NCBI RefSeq assembly: GCF_004358095.2
Contig: NZ_SMZJ02000005.1
Coordinates: 1 to 64,000 of the forward strand
Source of the DNA: Seonamhaeicola sediminis
GTDB taxonomy: Bacteria > Bacteroidota > Bacteroidia > Flavobacteriales > Flavobacteriaceae
Direction: 5' to 3'
Length of the DNA: 64,000 nucleotides
Notes under the pieces: model-generated
What the model was told of the DNA's origin: nothing
Database searches by the model: none
Seen by the model: the letters and a program-made list of their open reading frames with translations, nothing else
Translations under genes and position numbers: made by a program
Shown: positions 9,892-49,914 of the stretch, in pieces
How the letters are laid out: every line of letters starts with the position of its first letter
Numbering within the stretch: the first letter of the stretch is position 1

Positions 9892-9935
9892 TATTTATAA
9901 AAAATACTATGCGCGCATAGTATTTTTTATAAATA
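9892..9935. promoter_or_regulatory. 44-bp perfect palindrome upstream of etfB (probable operator)
   Basis: Every base from 9892 to 9913 pairs with 9914-9935. The core is ACTATGCGCGCATAGT, flanked by symmetric AT arms. A -7-like box TACCTTCG lies at 9943-9950, so the -33 region would fall inside the right half of the palindrome. This suits a repressor site for a dimeric regulator. It lies 52 bp upstream of etfB. The rest of the 327-bp pdhB-etfB gap shows only the pdhB promoter box. Confidence 0.7.
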
Positions 9936-19802: not shown

Positions 19803-20306
19803 ATGAAGATTTCTCGTCGGTCGGCATTCATCATATTAATAGTTATTGGCTCTATAGCTTTAGATCAAATTTCTAAAGTTTGGGTTAGAGCCAATGTAAA
19901 AGCAGGGAGTGTTTCCGAAATTTTCGGACATTATTTCACGTTGCATAATGTTGAAAATGAGGGCGCTTTTTTAGGTATGGGCAGTGATTTGAATGAAACA
20001 CTAAGAGTGATTCTATTATTAATTCTACCTGTAGTTGTTTTAGGACTTGTGCTTAGATATGTGTTTAAAGACAAAAGTTTAAGTAATTGGTCACTTTTTG
20101 CTTTTGCTAGCATTATAGGTGGTGGTATAGCCAATGTATATGACCGCTTTATGTACGGTAGCGTTACTGATTTCTGGCATATCAAATTAACAGACACATT
20201 AAGGACTGGCATTTTTAATGTAGCAGATGTATTTGTTAGCACTGGAATGATTATTCTAGTTTTTATTGCGCTGTTTAAAAAGAAACCTGCAGATATAAAA
20301 CAATAA
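19803..20306 (+). CDS. lspA: Lipoprotein signal peptidase (signal peptidase II)
   Basis: Inner-membrane aspartyl protease that cleaves the signal peptide of diacylglyceryl-modified prolipoproteins, of which this window encodes many. The 167-residue protein has four hydrophobic segments and the family motifs ALDQISKVW, NVENEGAFLG, GGGIANVYDR, SVTDF (Asp123) and FNVADVF (Asp142). The last two carry the catalytic dyad. Its stop codon lies inside the terminator palindrome. Confidence 0.96.
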   Translation: MKISRRSAFIILIVIGSIALDQISKVWVRANVKAGSVSEIFGHYFTLHNVENEGAFLGMGSDLNETLRVILLLILPVVVLGLVLRYVFKDKSLSNWSLFAFASIIGGGIANVYDRFMYGSVTDFWHIKLTDTLRTGIFNVADVFVSTGMIILVFIALFKKKPADIKQ

Positions 20307-20338
20307 AAGCTGATTAAATATTTAATCAGCTTTTATTG
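20301..20338. terminator. Bidirectional terminator between lspA and galE
   Basis: A 38-bp perfect palindrome (20301-20319 with 20320-20338) with a GC-containing AAAAGCTGATTAAAT arm and flanking T tract. It includes the last codons of lspA and ends 16 bp before the convergent galE stop, so it can end both transcripts. Confidence 0.8.
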
Positions 20339-20354
20339 TTTATATTATTTGTAA

Positions 20355-24362: not shown

Positions 24363-25517
24363 TTATTTAACCAACTTAACTTCCAAAGGGGTATTTAATT
24401 TTTTAGCAAAATCATGTAAATACTGTTCCCAACCATTTTGATTCTTAAACTGGTTACTTTTGCTCCAAGTAAAACCAGCGTAATAAACTACTTTATTGCT
24501 TATCACTTTTAAGTGCATGAAAGCGTTACTCAAATCCTTTTGTTCCGTTTCGTATTTTTCTGTACCCAAAAAATAGGCAGGGGTAGTAACTATGGCTGTC
24601 CCTAATTCTGCATCGTCATGAGGTTGCCAATAGTTTAACCAAGTTTCTTCTTTATTAGAAGTAACCACTCCATCTTTTTCATGTAATGTTAAACCAGCTG
24701 AAATACTATCAACACCTTCAATAGAAATTTCAAACTTTGATAGGTTGTTACCGTAATCTAGGGTTATTTTTTTAGACTCTTTAATCAACGTATCTCCTGC
24801 TTCCCAAGTACCATAATCTAGAGTAAAGCTGGTTCTAAGCGGCCCAGTAGTTATAGTTTTATAGTTTAAAAAGTTTTTTGAAATATAAAACGTACTATCC
24901 TTTTTATAAGCAATGCCTCCAACCCCTCTACTACTTCCTACATGAAAATTATCCAATCCTTCGCCAGTATCCTTATGATAAGTACCTGTCTTTTCAGTGT
25001 ATTTCTTATACCACTTATCAATTATGGAGTATTCAACTCGTTTCAACCAAGCGTCTATTCCACTGGATAAGGTACCTTCTTTAAGTTTGTTTTCAAATCT
25101 ATATTGTGCATTAGGCCCATAAGTTCTAAAAGCTACTTTATTGTTTTCCCAAGCATAATCATCGGTTCGTTCAGGAACAAATCTTGAATAGCAAACTACC
25201 TCAGCTGTATCTACAGCGACCTTGGTAACCTGATAATTATTTGTGGCTCCAGCCGGCACATTTGGCTGAAACAACAAAACGTCATTTACACCATCACCAT
25301 CATTATCAACTAACTGAGATGTTAAAAGTTTATTAGTCTCTAAATCCTTAACCCCCAAACCTTCAAGATTCTCTAACTCTAAAAAGCCTTTAGAAAGCTC
25401 TACAGTTTCATATTTCCTTTCTATGTCAAGGCTATTAGTTATTTCAATGACTATCTGGTTTTTTTCTTGACTGCAAGATAAACATAAGAACAGTATCAAT
25501 AATTTTAGAACTTTCAT
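24363..25517 (-). CDS. DUF4861 lipoprotein of the uronate locus
   Basis: The N-terminus MKVLKLLILFLCLSCSQ gives a lipobox with Cys15. The 384-residue beta-rich protein matches my recollection of DUF4861, a family found in polysaccharide-utilisation loci for uronic-acid-containing glycans. Recognisable stretches are LVDNDGDGVNDVLLFQ, GSSRGVGGIAY and LNYWQPHDDAELGTA. The enzymatic function is not known to me. It lies 13 bp downstream of kduI on the same strand, so it is surely in the same operon and probably acts outside the cytoplasm on the same substrate. Confidence 0.8.
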   Translation of the reverse strand: MKVLKLLILFLCLSCSQEKNQIVIEITNSLDIERKYETVELSKGFLELENLEGLGVKDLETNKLLTSQLVDNDGDGVNDVLLFQPNVPAGATNNYQVTKVAVDTAEVVCYSRFVPERTDDYAWENNKVAFRTYGPNAQYRFENKLKEGTLSSGIDAWLKRVEYSIIDKWYKKYTEKTGTYHKDTGEGLDNFHVGSSRGVGGIAYKKDSTFYISKNFLNYKTITTGPLRTSFTLDYGTWEAGDTLIKESKKITLDYGNNLSKFEISIEGVDSISAGLTLHEKDGVVTSNKEETWLNYWQPHDDAELGTAIVTTPAYFLGTEKYETEQKDLSNAFMHLKVISNKVVYYAGFTWSKSNQFKNQNGWEQYLHDFAKKLNTPLEVKLVK

Positions 25518-25530
25518 CTTAAAAACTATA

Positions 25531-26370
25531 TTATCTTAAATCTGGAATATTAGCCACATCCATATCACCATAATCTAAATTCTCTCCTGCCATTCCCCAT
25601 ATAAACGTATAGTTACTAGTTCCTGACCCTGAGTGTATAGACCAAGGTGGCGAAATTACTGCCTGTTCATTCTGCATCCATATATGTCTGGTTTCGTCTG
25701 TTTGCCCCATAAAATGACATACAGATTGTCCCTCTGGAACATCAATATAAAAATACACTTCCATGCGTCTGTCATGAACATGCGCTGGCATAGTATTCCA
25801 AACACTACCTGTTTTTAAAGAAGTCATTCCCATTTGCAATTGGCAAACATCAACAACACTATTTACAATATACTTTCTAAGCGTTCTGGCATTAGCTGTT
25901 TCTGGTGCACCTAGTTCAACAACTTCTACATCATTAGTTCCTATTTTTTTTGTAGGATAGGCTTTGTGTGCTGGTGTTGAGTTTAAGTAAAACTTGGCAG
26001 GATTACTTTGAGATTCACTAGAGAAAACAACTTCTTTATTTTCTTTTCCAATATACAGAGCCTCTTTATTATCTAAACTGTATGTTGTTCCATCAACAGT
26101 AACAGAACCTTTTCCTCCAATGTTTATGATACCTAGCTCTCTTCGTTCTAAAAAGTATTCTGATTTTAATTGGTCTACCGTTTCCAGCTTTACATCGTTT
26201 ACAGGAACAACCCCAGCGGTCATGAATCTATCATAATGCGAATAAACCCAATTTATACCATCAACTGTCATGACATTTTCAATTAAAAACTCATCTCTTA
26301 ATTCTTGAGTATCCATCCTTTTTACTTCTCTAGGAGAAGCTGCATAACGCACTTCACTATTTTTCACCAT
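25531..26370 (-). CDS. kduI: 5-dehydro-4-deoxy-D-glucuronate isomerase
   Basis: Isomerises 5-keto-4-deoxyuronate, the unsaturated product of uronate polysaccharide lyases, to 2,5-diketo-3-deoxygluconate. From ATG at 26370 the protein is 279 residues, as in E. coli (278); an upstream in-frame ATG (26484) would add 38 low-complexity residues that cross the operator and promoter, so it is rejected. The metal ligands are present as His197, His199 and Glu204 in AHVHDRRMEVYFY, and His246 in WSIHSGSG. Expression should be controlled by the divergent LacI regulator through the palindrome between them. KduD is not encoded in the window. Confidence 0.94.
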   Translation of the reverse strand: MVKNSEVRYAASPREVKRMDTQELRDEFLIENVMTVDGINWVYSHYDRFMTAGVVPVNDVKLETVDQLKSEYFLERRELGIINIGGKGSVTVDGTTYSLDNKEALYIGKENKEVVFSSESQSNPAKFYLNSTPAHKAYPTKKIGTNDVEVVELGAPETANARTLRKYIVNSVVDVCQLQMGMTSLKTGSVWNTMPAHVHDRRMEVYFYIDVPEGQSVCHFMGQTDETRHIWMQNEQAVISPPWSIHSGSGTSNYTFIWGMAGENLDYGDMDVANIPDLR

Positions 26371-26394: not shown

Positions 26395-26459
26395 TAAAAG
26401 TAATAAATAAATCCCAATAATCCAATCGATTGGATTATTGGGATTTATTTTTATATTTG
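26395..26459. promoter_or_regulatory. Divergent kduI/lacI promoters around a 46-bp palindromic operator
   Basis: 26405-26450 is a perfect palindrome centred on CpG with core ATCCAATCGATTGGAT, as expected for a LacI-family operator. Rightwards: TTG (26430-26432), 19 nt, TATATTTG (26452-26459) for the regulator. Leftwards: TTG (26423-26425), 20 nt, TACTTTTA (26395-26402) for kduI. Both -33 elements lie symmetrically in the operator core, so one bound dimer would block both promoters. Confidence 0.8.
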
Positions 26460-26492
26460 TTATTGTGGTACATTTCACTTCCACTTCAAAAT

Positions 26493-27506
26493 TTGAAAAA
26501 GCAAAAGATAACGATACATGATATTTCCAAGGCTCTCAAAATTGATAGTTCAACAGTATCAAGAGCATTAAATGACAGTTCTCGTGTTTCGTTAAAAACC
26601 AAACAAAAGATTCTTGATAAAGCCGAAGAACTTGGTTATCAGCGCAATATATTAGCATCTAACTTACGTACAAATAAAACAAATACCATTGGTGTTATAG
26701 TTCCCAGAATCTCCAGAAGTTTCTTTTCAAGTGTTATTTCTGGAATTGAAGACACTGCTCAAAATAGTGGCTACAATGTAATTATTTGCCAGTCTTTTGA
26801 GAGTTTTGAAAGAGAAAAAAAAATAATGAATACGCTACTATCCAATAGAGTAGACGGCGTTCTAATTTCAATTTCAATGCAAACAACTTCTTTTGATTAT
26901 TTAAAACCTTATTTAGATTATGGTGGTCCTATTGTATTTTATGACAGACCCTGTAGTTTTGAAAACTGTTCTAGTATAAGTGTTAATGATTACAAAGCAA
27001 GTTACACAGTAACAGAACATTTAATACAATCTGGGTGCAAAAATATAGTCCATTTTGCAGGTCCTCAGATTATAGATTTGTACAAAAACAGAAAACAAGG
27101 GTATGTTGATGCCATAATTAACAATGGATTAGAATTTAAAGAAAGTTATTGTTTTGAGTCTAAACTAGCAGAGGAAGACGGTGTAGCCTTTGCCAAAAAA
27201 ATTATATCAATGGAAAATATAGATGGTGTTTATTCCTCTAACGACACCGCAGCTATAGGCGCCATGCAATATTTAAAATTCATGGGAGTTAAAATACCCG
27301 AAGATATTGCTGTAGCTGGATTTAACAATGACCCTATTTCATCTGTAATAGAACCGGGCTTAACCACCATTAATCAACCTGATTTTGAAATGGGAAAAAT
27401 AGCAGCTAATATGCTTATTGAGCAAATTAAAAACGAAACTACTAATAAAGAAAGTAAAGTTTTGGATGTAGAATTGATAATAAGAAATTCATCTCAAAAA
27501 AATTAA
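26493..27506 (+). CDS. LacI-family transcriptional regulator of the uronate locus
   Basis: DNA-binding repressor or activator, probably sensing a uronate-derived sugar. TTG at 26493 gives MKKQKITIHDISKALKIDSS, a classical LacI helix-turn-helix (SSTVSRALND), hinge helix (LASNLRTNKTNTIGVIVP) and a periplasmic-binding-protein-like ligand domain. The latter includes VDGVLIS, FYDRP, DGVYSSNDTAAIGAM and AVAGFNNDP. An in-frame ATG far upstream (26430) lies within the operator and is unlikely. The 337-residue length is normal. It should bind the palindrome immediately upstream, and so autoregulate. Confidence 0.9.
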   Translation: MKKQKITIHDISKALKIDSSTVSRALNDSSRVSLKTKQKILDKAEELGYQRNILASNLRTNKTNTIGVIVPRISRSFFSSVISGIEDTAQNSGYNVIICQSFESFEREKKIMNTLLSNRVDGVLISISMQTTSFDYLKPYLDYGGPIVFYDRPCSFENCSSISVNDYKASYTVTEHLIQSGCKNIVHFAGPQIIDLYKNRKQGYVDAIINNGLEFKESYCFESKLAEEDGVAFAKKIISMENIDGVYSSNDTAAIGAMQYLKFMGVKIPEDIAVAGFNNDPISSVIEPGLTTINQPDFEMGKIAANMLIEQIKNETTNKESKVLDVELIIRNSSQKN

Positions 27507-46876: not shown

Positions 46877-49720
46877 TTAGTTCTTTCTCTTGAATAAATC
46901 ATACTTTAAACCTACAGATAATCTCTGGCTATAGTATTCCATTTGCATGGTTCTACTTTTCACACCTTGGAAATATCTTAAAGGTTGATCTGTAATATTG
47001 TTCAAATCTACATACAAACGTAAATTATCACTAAATGCATATGATGCATTAAAATCTAAAAACAATTGTTGGTCATAATATCTGTCTTCAAACGCATTAC
47101 CTCCAATTTCATCAATGTATGCATCAGAGAAGTTTAATGATAAGCGTAAGTTTAATTTTTTACCACCATAAGAAAGCGAACCGTTAAACATATTTGGTGC
47201 AGTTCCTGGTAAATCTAAATCGGTACGTTCGTCACCGTCTTCGTTTCTTATACCATCGGCACTTGATGATAAATAGGTATAGTTCAAGAAAACGCTTAAA
47301 TTTTTAGCAAAACCAGGAAGGAAGTCTAACTGGCGTTGGAAAGACACCTCTGCTCCAGTAATTGAGGCATCGTCACCATTTTGAGGCTGAAACGCATCAA
47401 AACCTGTAGCGCTATCTGTGAACTGTGATGTATAAATAAAATCTTGAATGTTTTTATGAAACACTCCTGCTGATATTAATCCAACACTTTTAAAATAATG
47501 CTCTGCCATTAAATCAAAATTCATAGATTTTGTAGCGCTTAATTCTGGGTTACCAATGCTTACCTCTTCATCTTCTCTTACTACATTTCTAAATGGCACT
47601 AAATCTATATAGTTAGGTCTTGCCAAAGTATTTGTCCATGCAAAACGTAACACTGTATTATTGGCAACATTATATTTAAAGTGTACACCTGGTAGGATAT
47701 TAACATAAGAATTATCATCTTTAATTTCTCCAGAAGCGTTCGGATCGAAATCACCATCTTCATCAAAAACCACTAAGTTTCCATTAGTTTCAATTTCTGT
47801 ATTCTCAATACGAACACCCGCTAAAACAGACAATTTATCTGATACTTGTTGGTTAATCATAGCGTAGCCAGCATATACATCTTCTTTTACAAGATAATTT
47901 CCTGATAAAAACTCATCAACAATTGATTCACTTTCAAATAAGTTTGAATTTTGTAAATCTAAACTTCCTAAGTACTCAGGATCTACATAAGCACCAGCAA
48001 CATATTGACTTCCTGCTAAGAAATCTGCATCTGTTTGATCTACTAAGGGCAATAATGCTAAATTATCGAAATTGCTTGTTTCTGGTGAAAACTCAAAGAA
48101 GTTATTGTCTCTGTTTTTTTCTTTAAAACGTAAACGGCCACCAACTTTAATAAAGCCTTCTTTCTCTTTTACTAGGGAGAATGGTATTTGTAAATTTGTA
48201 AAGAAATTCCAGTCCTTCTCTTCAGTAAACTGATTTTCTTCAGTAATTCCGTTTAAACTATATCTACTTAAAAGCACATCGCTAGAATTGGCTGGTACAA
48301 TTACAGGAAATCTAGTGTTAGAAAAATCTGCATTAAAAGGTATCGGGTCACTATCAACCGTTTCCTCTAATTCATACTCAATATATCGCTCGTTTAAACG
48401 TTCTTCAGAAGCACTAGCGTAAGACCCCATCCAATCTAACTTAATTTTTCCTATTAAATGCTCACCACCAAAAGTATAGTTTTGCATACGCTGGTCTTCC
48501 AAACGTGCATTTTTGTTTCTATCGTTGTCAATACCACCTTTTGTTTCTCTTCTAATTTCACCTTGAAAGCCAGTGATAGTTTCTGTACCATCTTCAAAAA
48601 TAGGTTCAATGGAGCGGTAGCGTAATCTGTATCGGTTTTCTCTATCGTCTCTCCAGTTGTACATGGTTTTTAAGTACAACTTATTATTTGGATTGAAAGC
48701 ATAATCAAAATTAGCGGAAAAGCTTCTTCTCACTCGCTGCACCAAATAAGTTCTAATATCTGATTCTTCAACAAAAGGATCAACTTCTATATCATCTCCA
48801 GATAAAGGACTTTCTGCTTCGTTTACCCATTCAGCTTCTACGTTATCTGAACCAAAATCGGTATCATTAATTGAGGCAGAAAACATATAACCAAACTTCC
48901 CGTTGTTAGTTCTATCTCCTATTAAGAAAGAACCATTAACAATACGCTTATTAGTAATAAAGTTTACTCCAGAACCAGCGGTAGCAGCCACTCTAAATCC
49001 GTTAGGCGACGTTCTTGTTACTAAATTAACAGAACCACCAAGTGCATCACCATCCATATCAGGTGTAACAGCTTTGTTTACCTCTATTAACTGAATCATA
49101 TCTGCCGGAATAAGGTCCATTTGTATGTTTCTGTTATCACCTTCGGCAGAAGGAATACGGCTTCCATTTAAAGTTACTGAGTTTAATTGAGGAGCTAAAC
49201 CACGAACGATAATATTACGAGCCTCTCCTTGATCTACCTGCATGGTAATACCAGGAATACGTTTTACCGCATCACCGATGTTAGCATCTGGAAATTTACC
49301 AATTTGATCTGTTGAAACTACATTGGTTATGTTCTGCTTATTTTTTTGAGCATTCAATGCCTTTGCTTGTCCGCTATTATAACCGTTAATTACAACACCA
49401 TCTAATTCTAAAGCTTTTGCAGTAATGGTTACGGTTACATTGGTAGTTATTCCTTCTGTCACCTCTACTTCTACATCAGTATCAGAATACCCTAAATAAA
49501 CAACTTTAATGGTTTGCTTACCAGATGGAATATTTAAAAACAAAAACTTTCCGTCTGCATCAGAAATTACTCCTTTATCCAGTGATTCTAATAAAACACT
49601 TGCAAAGGGCACTGCAAGTCCTTTTTCGTCAATAATGGTACCTTGAATATTTCCGTTTTGAGAGAATCCAATTAACGAAAACACCATGGCTAAAAATAAA
49701 ATTACGTATTGTTTTTTCAT
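46877..49720 (-). CDS. TonB-dependent receptor paired with phytase
   Basis: Outer-membrane 22-strand barrel for energised import. The 947-residue protein has a signal peptide ending SLIGFSQ, a CarboxypepD_reg-like domain (IQGTIIDEKGLAVPFASVLL...), the plug (FPDANIGDAVKRIPGITMQV, IIVRGLAPQLNSVTLNG) and a barrel ending RLSVGLKYDLFKRKN. No SusD partner follows, so it is not a classical Sus system. The partner gene suggests a substrate such as inositol phosphates, or a product of phytate degradation. This is inferred from context only. Confidence 0.92.
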   Translation of the reverse strand: MKKQYVILFLAMVFSLIGFSQNGNIQGTIIDEKGLAVPFASVLLESLDKGVISDADGKFLFLNIPSGKQTIKVVYLGYSDTDVEVEVTEGITTNVTVTITAKALELDGVVINGYNSGQAKALNAQKNKQNITNVVSTDQIGKFPDANIGDAVKRIPGITMQVDQGEARNIIVRGLAPQLNSVTLNGSRIPSAEGDNRNIQMDLIPADMIQLIEVNKAVTPDMDGDALGGSVNLVTRTSPNGFRVAATAGSGVNFITNKRIVNGSFLIGDRTNNGKFGYMFSASINDTDFGSDNVEAEWVNEAESPLSGDDIEVDPFVEESDIRTYLVQRVRRSFSANFDYAFNPNNKLYLKTMYNWRDDRENRYRLRYRSIEPIFEDGTETITGFQGEIRRETKGGIDNDRNKNARLEDQRMQNYTFGGEHLIGKIKLDWMGSYASASEERLNERYIEYELEETVDSDPIPFNADFSNTRFPVIVPANSSDVLLSRYSLNGITEENQFTEEKDWNFFTNLQIPFSLVKEKEGFIKVGGRLRFKEKNRDNNFFEFSPETSNFDNLALLPLVDQTDADFLAGSQYVAGAYVDPEYLGSLDLQNSNLFESESIVDEFLSGNYLVKEDVYAGYAMINQQVSDKLSVLAGVRIENTEIETNGNLVVFDEDGDFDPNASGEIKDDNSYVNILPGVHFKYNVANNTVLRFAWTNTLARPNYIDLVPFRNVVREDEEVSIGNPELSATKSMNFDLMAEHYFKSVGLISAGVFHKNIQDFIYTSQFTDSATGFDAFQPQNGDDASITGAEVSFQRQLDFLPGFAKNLSVFLNYTYLSSSADGIRNEDGDERTDLDLPGTAPNMFNGSLSYGGKKLNLRLSLNFSDAYIDEIGGNAFEDRYYDQQLFLDFNASYAFSDNLRLYVDLNNITDQPLRYFQGVKSRTMQMEYYSQRLSVGLKYDLFKRKN

Positions 49721-49884: not shown

Positions 49885-49914
49885 AAAACCCTTTCCAAAT
49901 TTGGAAAGGGTTTT
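49885..49914 (-). terminator. Terminator after rpmA
   Basis: A 30-bp perfect palindrome (AACCCTTTCCAAA/TTTGGAAAGGGTT core) with A and T tracts, 22 bp past the rpmA stop. It separates the ribosomal operon from the phytase receptor promoter region. Confidence 0.85.

Follow-up and report, generated by a model that had tools for sequence, protein, structure and literature searches.

Ravcheev et al. (2014, PMC4052901) report 1303 motifs of LacI-family regulators, of which 1251 are palindromes of even length, 16-22 nt. The site described here is an even, CG-centred palindrome beside the gene of its putative regulator and in this respect resembles the autoregulated local operators of that report. 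It departs from them in that its symmetry reaches 46 bp, and the main text of the report mentions neither Flavobacter nor kdu. A second likeness is to the KdgR, UxaR and UxuR regulons of Bacteroides, in which LacI-family regulators control hexuronate and 2-keto-3-deoxygluconate pathways, likewise within the Bacteroidota (PMC3878776, PMC4052901). The Bacteroides regulators are described for the catabolism of glucuronate, galacturonate and ketodeoxygluconate; kdu does not occur in the main texts of the two papers.

The extra symmetry of the site finds its closest likeness elsewhere, in quasipalindrome template switching, where an imperfect inverted repeat is perfected by copying one of its arms and multi-base paired changes arise in one step (PMC7202029, PMC8794818). 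Mutation of this kind at quasipalindromes is known from E. coli reporters (PMC7202029), and template switching has been proposed for RNA genes (PMC8794818). The settings named in these papers are reporter genes, mutation hotspots and RNA genes, whereas in the present case a repressor operator would act as the seed, and promoter spacers would be part of what is copied. Among the papers listed in searches of the open-access literature, none was, by its title and the beginning of its abstract, on this operator or on template switching at operators, which is weak evidence of absence.

The kduI-lacI locus

The window, that is the whole stretch of DNA analysed, comprises 64,000 nt of Seonamhaeicola sediminis. 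The palindrome is located in the gap between two divergent genes, kduI and the gene of a LacI-family regulator (lacI below). The features of the locus, with the promoter elements as predicted, are the following.

24363 to 25517, minus strand: DUF4861 / BT3233-family polysaccharide utilisation gene, 13 bp downstream of kduI
25531 to 26370, minus strand: kduI, 5-dehydro-4-deoxy-D-glucuronate isomerase (NCBIfam PRK00924, 440.7 bits against a cut-off of 250)
26395 to 26402, minus strand: TACTTTTA, -7 box of the kduI promoter, predicted start at about 26390
26405 to 26450, no strand: perfect loop-free palindrome of 46 bp, two 23-nt arms, centre 26427/26428
26420 to 26435, no strand: ATCCAATCGATTGGAT, putative LacI-family operator, with the conserved core CAATCGATTG at 26423-26432
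26423 to 26425, minus strand: TTG, -33 element of the kduI promoter, spacer 20
26430 to 26432, plus strand: TTG, -33 element of the lacI promoter, spacer 19
26452 to 26459, plus strand: TATATTTG, -7 box of the lacI promoter, predicted start at about 26464
26493 to 27506, plus strand: LacI-family regulator of 337 aa, probable TTG start

The start codon of kduI is the ATG at 26370, and kduI alone in the whole genome matches the KduI family (PF04962). It probably forms one operon with the DUF4861 gene. The regulator, for which the TTG at 26493 is the probable start, carries a LacI DNA-binding domain (PF00356, 38.4 bits) and a sugar-binding domain (PF00532, 111.6 bits), both above cut-off. A search of the genome for kduD gave no match above the curated cut-off, the best scoring 231.8 against 338.85 bits. 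In some relatives (L043-L047 and L049) an SDR gene is found between kduI and the DUF4861-type gene and, to judge by its sequence, may be kduD. Another contig carries genes that, named by eye, are presumably ulvan-lyase-like and rhamnosidase-like, and because of these the uronate may originate from ulvan.

The palindrome is rare in its length. Six loop-free perfect palindromes with arms of at least 12 were found in 464 kb of the genome (the window and 20 stretches of 20 kb), and only one of the others, of 50 bp, is longer; two are 44 bp long.

Predicted divergent promoters

The initial annotation had described a perfect 46-bp palindrome between kduI and the LacI-family gene, the TTGs in its centre serving two divergent promoters. 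The palindrome is confirmed as 2 x 23 bp, and the promoters fit, with good -7 boxes at spacers 20 (kduI) and 19 (lacI) and a conserved box placement. Taking the -7 box to span -12 to -5 (PMC9723704) leads to the predicted starts at about 26390 and 26464. The predicted leaders are about 20 nt (kduI) and 29 nt (lacI) long. Relative to these starts, the palindrome covers about -14 to -60 of both promoters and the 16-bp core about -30 to -45. Because the palindrome lies between the two -7 boxes, upstream of both predicted starts, it is contained in neither predicted transcript.

Box placement was compared in 43 non-redundant sites with a kduI start within 250 bp, a box being defined as TA plus at least five of the six letters of TAnnTTTG. 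Of the 43 sites, 34, the window included, have a kduI-side box beginning at arm position 24-26, whereas 500 shuffles of the arms produced 2.2 on average and never more than 8. On the lacI side the box starts at position 24-28 in 24 sites (mean 4.2 and maximum 10 in as many shuffles). It is closer, at position 14-15, in several sisters of the locus L079, so that the central TTG is not the lacI -33 element in every relative. An alternative kduI box, TACGGTTG (26396-26389), was rejected; it would require a spacer of 26 to the central TTG, and the relatives retain a box of the TACTTTTA type.

The putative operator core

The central part of the palindrome has the marks of a LacI-family operator: it is an even palindrome, has a CG centre and lies near a regulator gene. 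A CC/GG pair stands beside the core in the window, where the relatives usually have AC/GT, and the usual form in the relatives is ATACAATCGATTGTAT.

Conservation was followed in two sets of loci. A scan with one genome per species yielded 14 related loci from Seonamhaeicola, Hyunsoonleella, Ochrovirga, Wenyingzhuangia, Lutibacter and further Flavobacteriaceae. Each of the 14 contains exactly one CAATCGATTG, which lies beside kduI in 13. In L036, L037 and L041 the lacI gene is 2.9-3.5 kb away, yet the site keeps a distance of 55-68 bp to the kduI start; in L042 the site is upstream of lacI alone, with no kduI in the flanking DNA examined. The second set, overlapping the first in part, consists of regulator matches at E up to 1e-100, which occur at 45 places in 44 of 397 family genomes drawn from the larger family, the window included. 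The core is present in the flanking DNA examined for 44 of these 45 matches. It is found within 260 bp of both the lacI and the kduI starts in 33, beside lacI only in 4 and beside kduI only in 3, and the other 4 cores stand over 1 kb away from the lacI start, no start of kduI being seen close to them. The exception, L095, has no core within the 8 kb examined. Some of the family loci are not oriented; in these lacI and kduI are divergent, not tandem. The recognition helix is almost invariant among the loci.

A LacI operator that overlaps both -33 elements and provides autoregulation, as the initial annotation had proposed, is well supported by this conservation at the level of sequence. The wider regulon that it had also suggested found no support. 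Allowing up to three mismatches, ATCCAATCGATTGGAT has 17 sites per strand genome-wide and the reversed control 14, which is no enrichment. The shorter CAATCGATTG occurs four times in the genome, as the operator copy and as three copies inside reading frames, and the core CCAATCGATTGG at 26422-26433 occurs once in 3.54 Mb. The site stays with kduI where lacI has moved, and the other core copies sit in reading frames; this points to a local switch under autoregulation, not to a regulon motif.

Hybrid operators with the halves TACAATC and GATTGGA are found in L077, L084 and L092, where the GG half of the window is present on the lacI side only.

The outer arms

Outside the core the symmetry varies widely. 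The perfect arm length ranges from 5 to 30 across the 43 sites; it is under 15 in 33 of them and at least 15 in 10, and the whole palindrome measures 10-30 bp in 34. The longest palindromes are those of L056 (60 bp, from a 76%-complete draft genome), L079 (58 bp) and the window (46 bp). Their outer letters differ, each lineage having perfect arms of its own. Copies of other rows (L006, L009, L065, L066, L067, L101 and L102) were left out before counting, and for the pairing test the near-copies L046, L047 and L049 were dropped as well.

As a control, left arms were paired with right arms from other loci. Within loci 10 of 43 sites have arms of at least 15; in 5000 such pairings the average was 0.33 and the highest count 3. 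The longest perfect arm was 30 as observed and 18 in any of the 5000. The sites are phylogenetically related, and these figures are no strict probability. Summed over positions 9-40, the pairs number 611 against 565 (sd 16) across loci, with 18 of 5000 as high. Leaving out the three longest palindromes gives 545 against 526, which is not significant (586 of 5000 as high), so that the case for copying depends on unbroken perfect runs and on a handful of strong examples. The excess of pairing consists of contiguous runs that extend from the operator outward and then end, the pattern expected from copying that proceeds outward from the core. On the LacI tree, built from 46 regulators and with good support for 26 of its 43 inner branches, the state of having long arms requires at least seven changes, which may include losses; such arms are also mildly clustered, 24 of 500 shuffles scoring as low.

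Comparison of the window with its genus relatives L036-L038 revealed paired changes. Over arm positions 6-17, the left arm is changed at 6, 10, 13, 14 and 15, and the right arm is changed at the same five positions, all of them complementary. The chance of five coinciding changes is about 5e-6 under simple independence, a rough value computed after seeing the data. Further out, at positions 18-26, the arms share changed positions only at 23 and 26, and the changes at 26 are unpaired. The arms of the window hold a CCC/GGG block that is absent in the three relatives.

In L079 (genome G067) both -7 boxes are at position 22, inside the 58-bp palindrome. Its six sisters have perfect arms of 5-11, with the lacI box at 14-15 and the kduI box at 24-25. 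It is as if the kduI-side promoter had been copied onto the lacI side, a direction suggested by the box spacing.

A palindrome upstream of etfB

At the kduI site only paired changes are seen. Replacement of an arm is found at another site of the window, a clearer candidate case of arm copying.

9892 to 9935, no strand: perfect palindrome of 44 bp, in the divergent gap upstream of etfB

The gap separates a transketolase-type gene and an electron-transfer-flavoprotein (etfB-like) gene, which are divergent, and the etfB start is 73 bp from the centre of the palindrome. A short core (TATGCGCGCATA or close) is kept in all seven genus members examined. The perfect arms are 22 in G000, 21 in G002, which is the nearest relative by etfB DNA (86%), and 0-6 in the other five. 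Over 40 bp, five relatives have a right arm with 90-97% identity to that of the window, and the sixth, G001, has one with 53%. For the left arm the identity is 88% with G002 and 50-60% with the other five, and in both G000 and G002 this arm is the reverse complement of the right one, as arm replacement by template switching would leave it. Within the shared 21 bp one pair differs between G000 and G002, on both sides. Because the right arm is widely conserved and the left arm is similar in G002 alone, the right arm was probably copied onto the left. A single copying step in the common ancestor of G000 and G002 would explain the etfB arms simply. The palindrome itself is possibly the binding site of some regulator.

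Origin of the symmetry

The reading that best accommodates the kduI site has two parts, an ordinary one, operator function, and an additional one, the extra symmetry, which is best explained by quasipalindrome template switching. The central 16 bp would be the operator of the adjacent LacI-family regulator, and a dimer bound there would cover the -33 elements of both divergent promoters and repress kduI-DUF4861 together with the regulator's own gene, until an intermediate of the uronate pathway released it. The outer 15 bp on each side would not be read by the repressor. They would have become symmetrical when the short operator palindrome allowed a nascent strand, in the course of replication, to fold back and use one flank as the template for the other, an event placed in the lineage of the window and probably repeated independently in others. 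Taken jointly, a central operator and outer arms made symmetric by fold-back copying are considered likely.

The most serious rival holds that the whole 46 bp is one protein target, bound by extra dimers, a tetramer or a second symmetric protein, and that selection keeps it symmetrical. Symmetry selected by some further protein could also yield paired changes, pairing exceeds the cross-locus level at arm positions 10-17, and palindromes of 30-32 bp with a -7-like box inside accompany some paralogous LacI genes of the genus, three of them in nearly the same letters. This rival is nevertheless rather unlikely, as the outer letters differ among the long-arm lineages, 33 of 43 sites manage with perfect arms under 15, and published LacI-family motifs are overwhelmingly confined to 16-22 nt (1251 of 1303, PMC4052901). 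The initial annotation had considered that the outer arms might bind a tetramer, which was not borne out. No C-terminal tetramerisation helix was detected in the 337-aa regulator, whose match to the NCBIfam LacI model PRK09526 (152 bits, below the cut-off of 340) stops at model position 333 of 358, before the C-terminal end. The part missing from the match is presumably that helix. A tetramer is unlikely, and since the letters of the outer arms are not conserved, contact of the repressor with them appears unlikely as well. The other role that had been offered for the arms, a hairpin, stands in part. The 66 nt from 26395 to 26460, folded as single-stranded DNA, reach -19.7 kcal/mol, where shuffled versions average -4.97 (z -7.5; none of 200 as good), and a DNA hairpin is possible; a transcribed one is unsupported at a site upstream of both predicted starts. 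Selection of the palindrome as a hairpin or cruciform, or as a transcription terminator or insulator between the genes, would profit from this strong fold and from the terminator-like position of two of the other five long palindromes in the 464 kb, between convergent genes. It is improbable for a site that lies between two -7 boxes and is absent from both predicted transcripts, and the short arms of most orthologous sites (under 15 in 33 of 43) speak against it too.

The outer symmetry might also be a by-product of two similar AT-rich promoters that face each other, their arms evolving uncoupled. Both arms do have AT-rich spacers and similar boxes, cross-locus pairing reaches 0.3-0.6 at most positions from 10 to 31, and the summed pairing is not significantly raised once the three longest sites are removed. 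Cross-locus pairs, however, are under the same constraints and never exceeded 18 in 5000 trials, against the 30, 29 and 23 observed, and the CCC/GGG block of the window is missing from its three genus relatives; there is little likelihood of a by-product. An assembly error would be conceivable in a draft of 50 contigs, but it is very improbable for an internal palindrome with different flanks and intact divergent genes, given that the 58-bp case comes from a single-contig genome (G067) and the etfB palindrome is common to two genomes.

The site offers a clean, testable repressor-operator pair for the control of a uronate isomerase in marine Flavobacteriaceae. A more general proposal is that operator palindromes seed repeated fold-back overwriting of one promoter flank, turning switches into mirror-image bidirectional promoters that evolve in concert, as in G067. 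It is tentative, its chances being somewhat short of even. If arm copying were general, it would be wrong to take symmetry outside a bacterial operator's core for protein contact, or paired changes for selection of a hairpin, and a one-step route would exist that makes divergent promoters equal.

Other palindromes

The survey of 464 kb contains no palindrome with arms of 12-14, while its six palindromes have arms of 15-25. The missing lengths are odd and point to selection or copying. Two further palindromes lie in the window. One, of 44 bp, is located at 20298-20341 between the convergent genes lspA and a sugar-nucleotide epimerase gene and is probably a bidirectional terminator. The other, of 30 bp, is intergenic (49885-49914), upstream of a gene for 947 aa at 46877-49720; both are perfect.

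Paralogous LacI loci have palindromes of their own. Just upstream of the gene starts in L113 (10739-10768, in the window's own genome and at the same place as L015), L012 and L018 there are palindromes of 30-32 bp, TATATTTGCTTAAACGTTTAAGCAAATATA, which combine a -7-like box with an operator-like centre. In three paralogous loci of the genus, L014, L016 and L017, 30-bp palindromes differ by paired changes on both arms, with AACGTT against ATCGAT in the centre and TACTTTTG against TATTTTTG in the arms.
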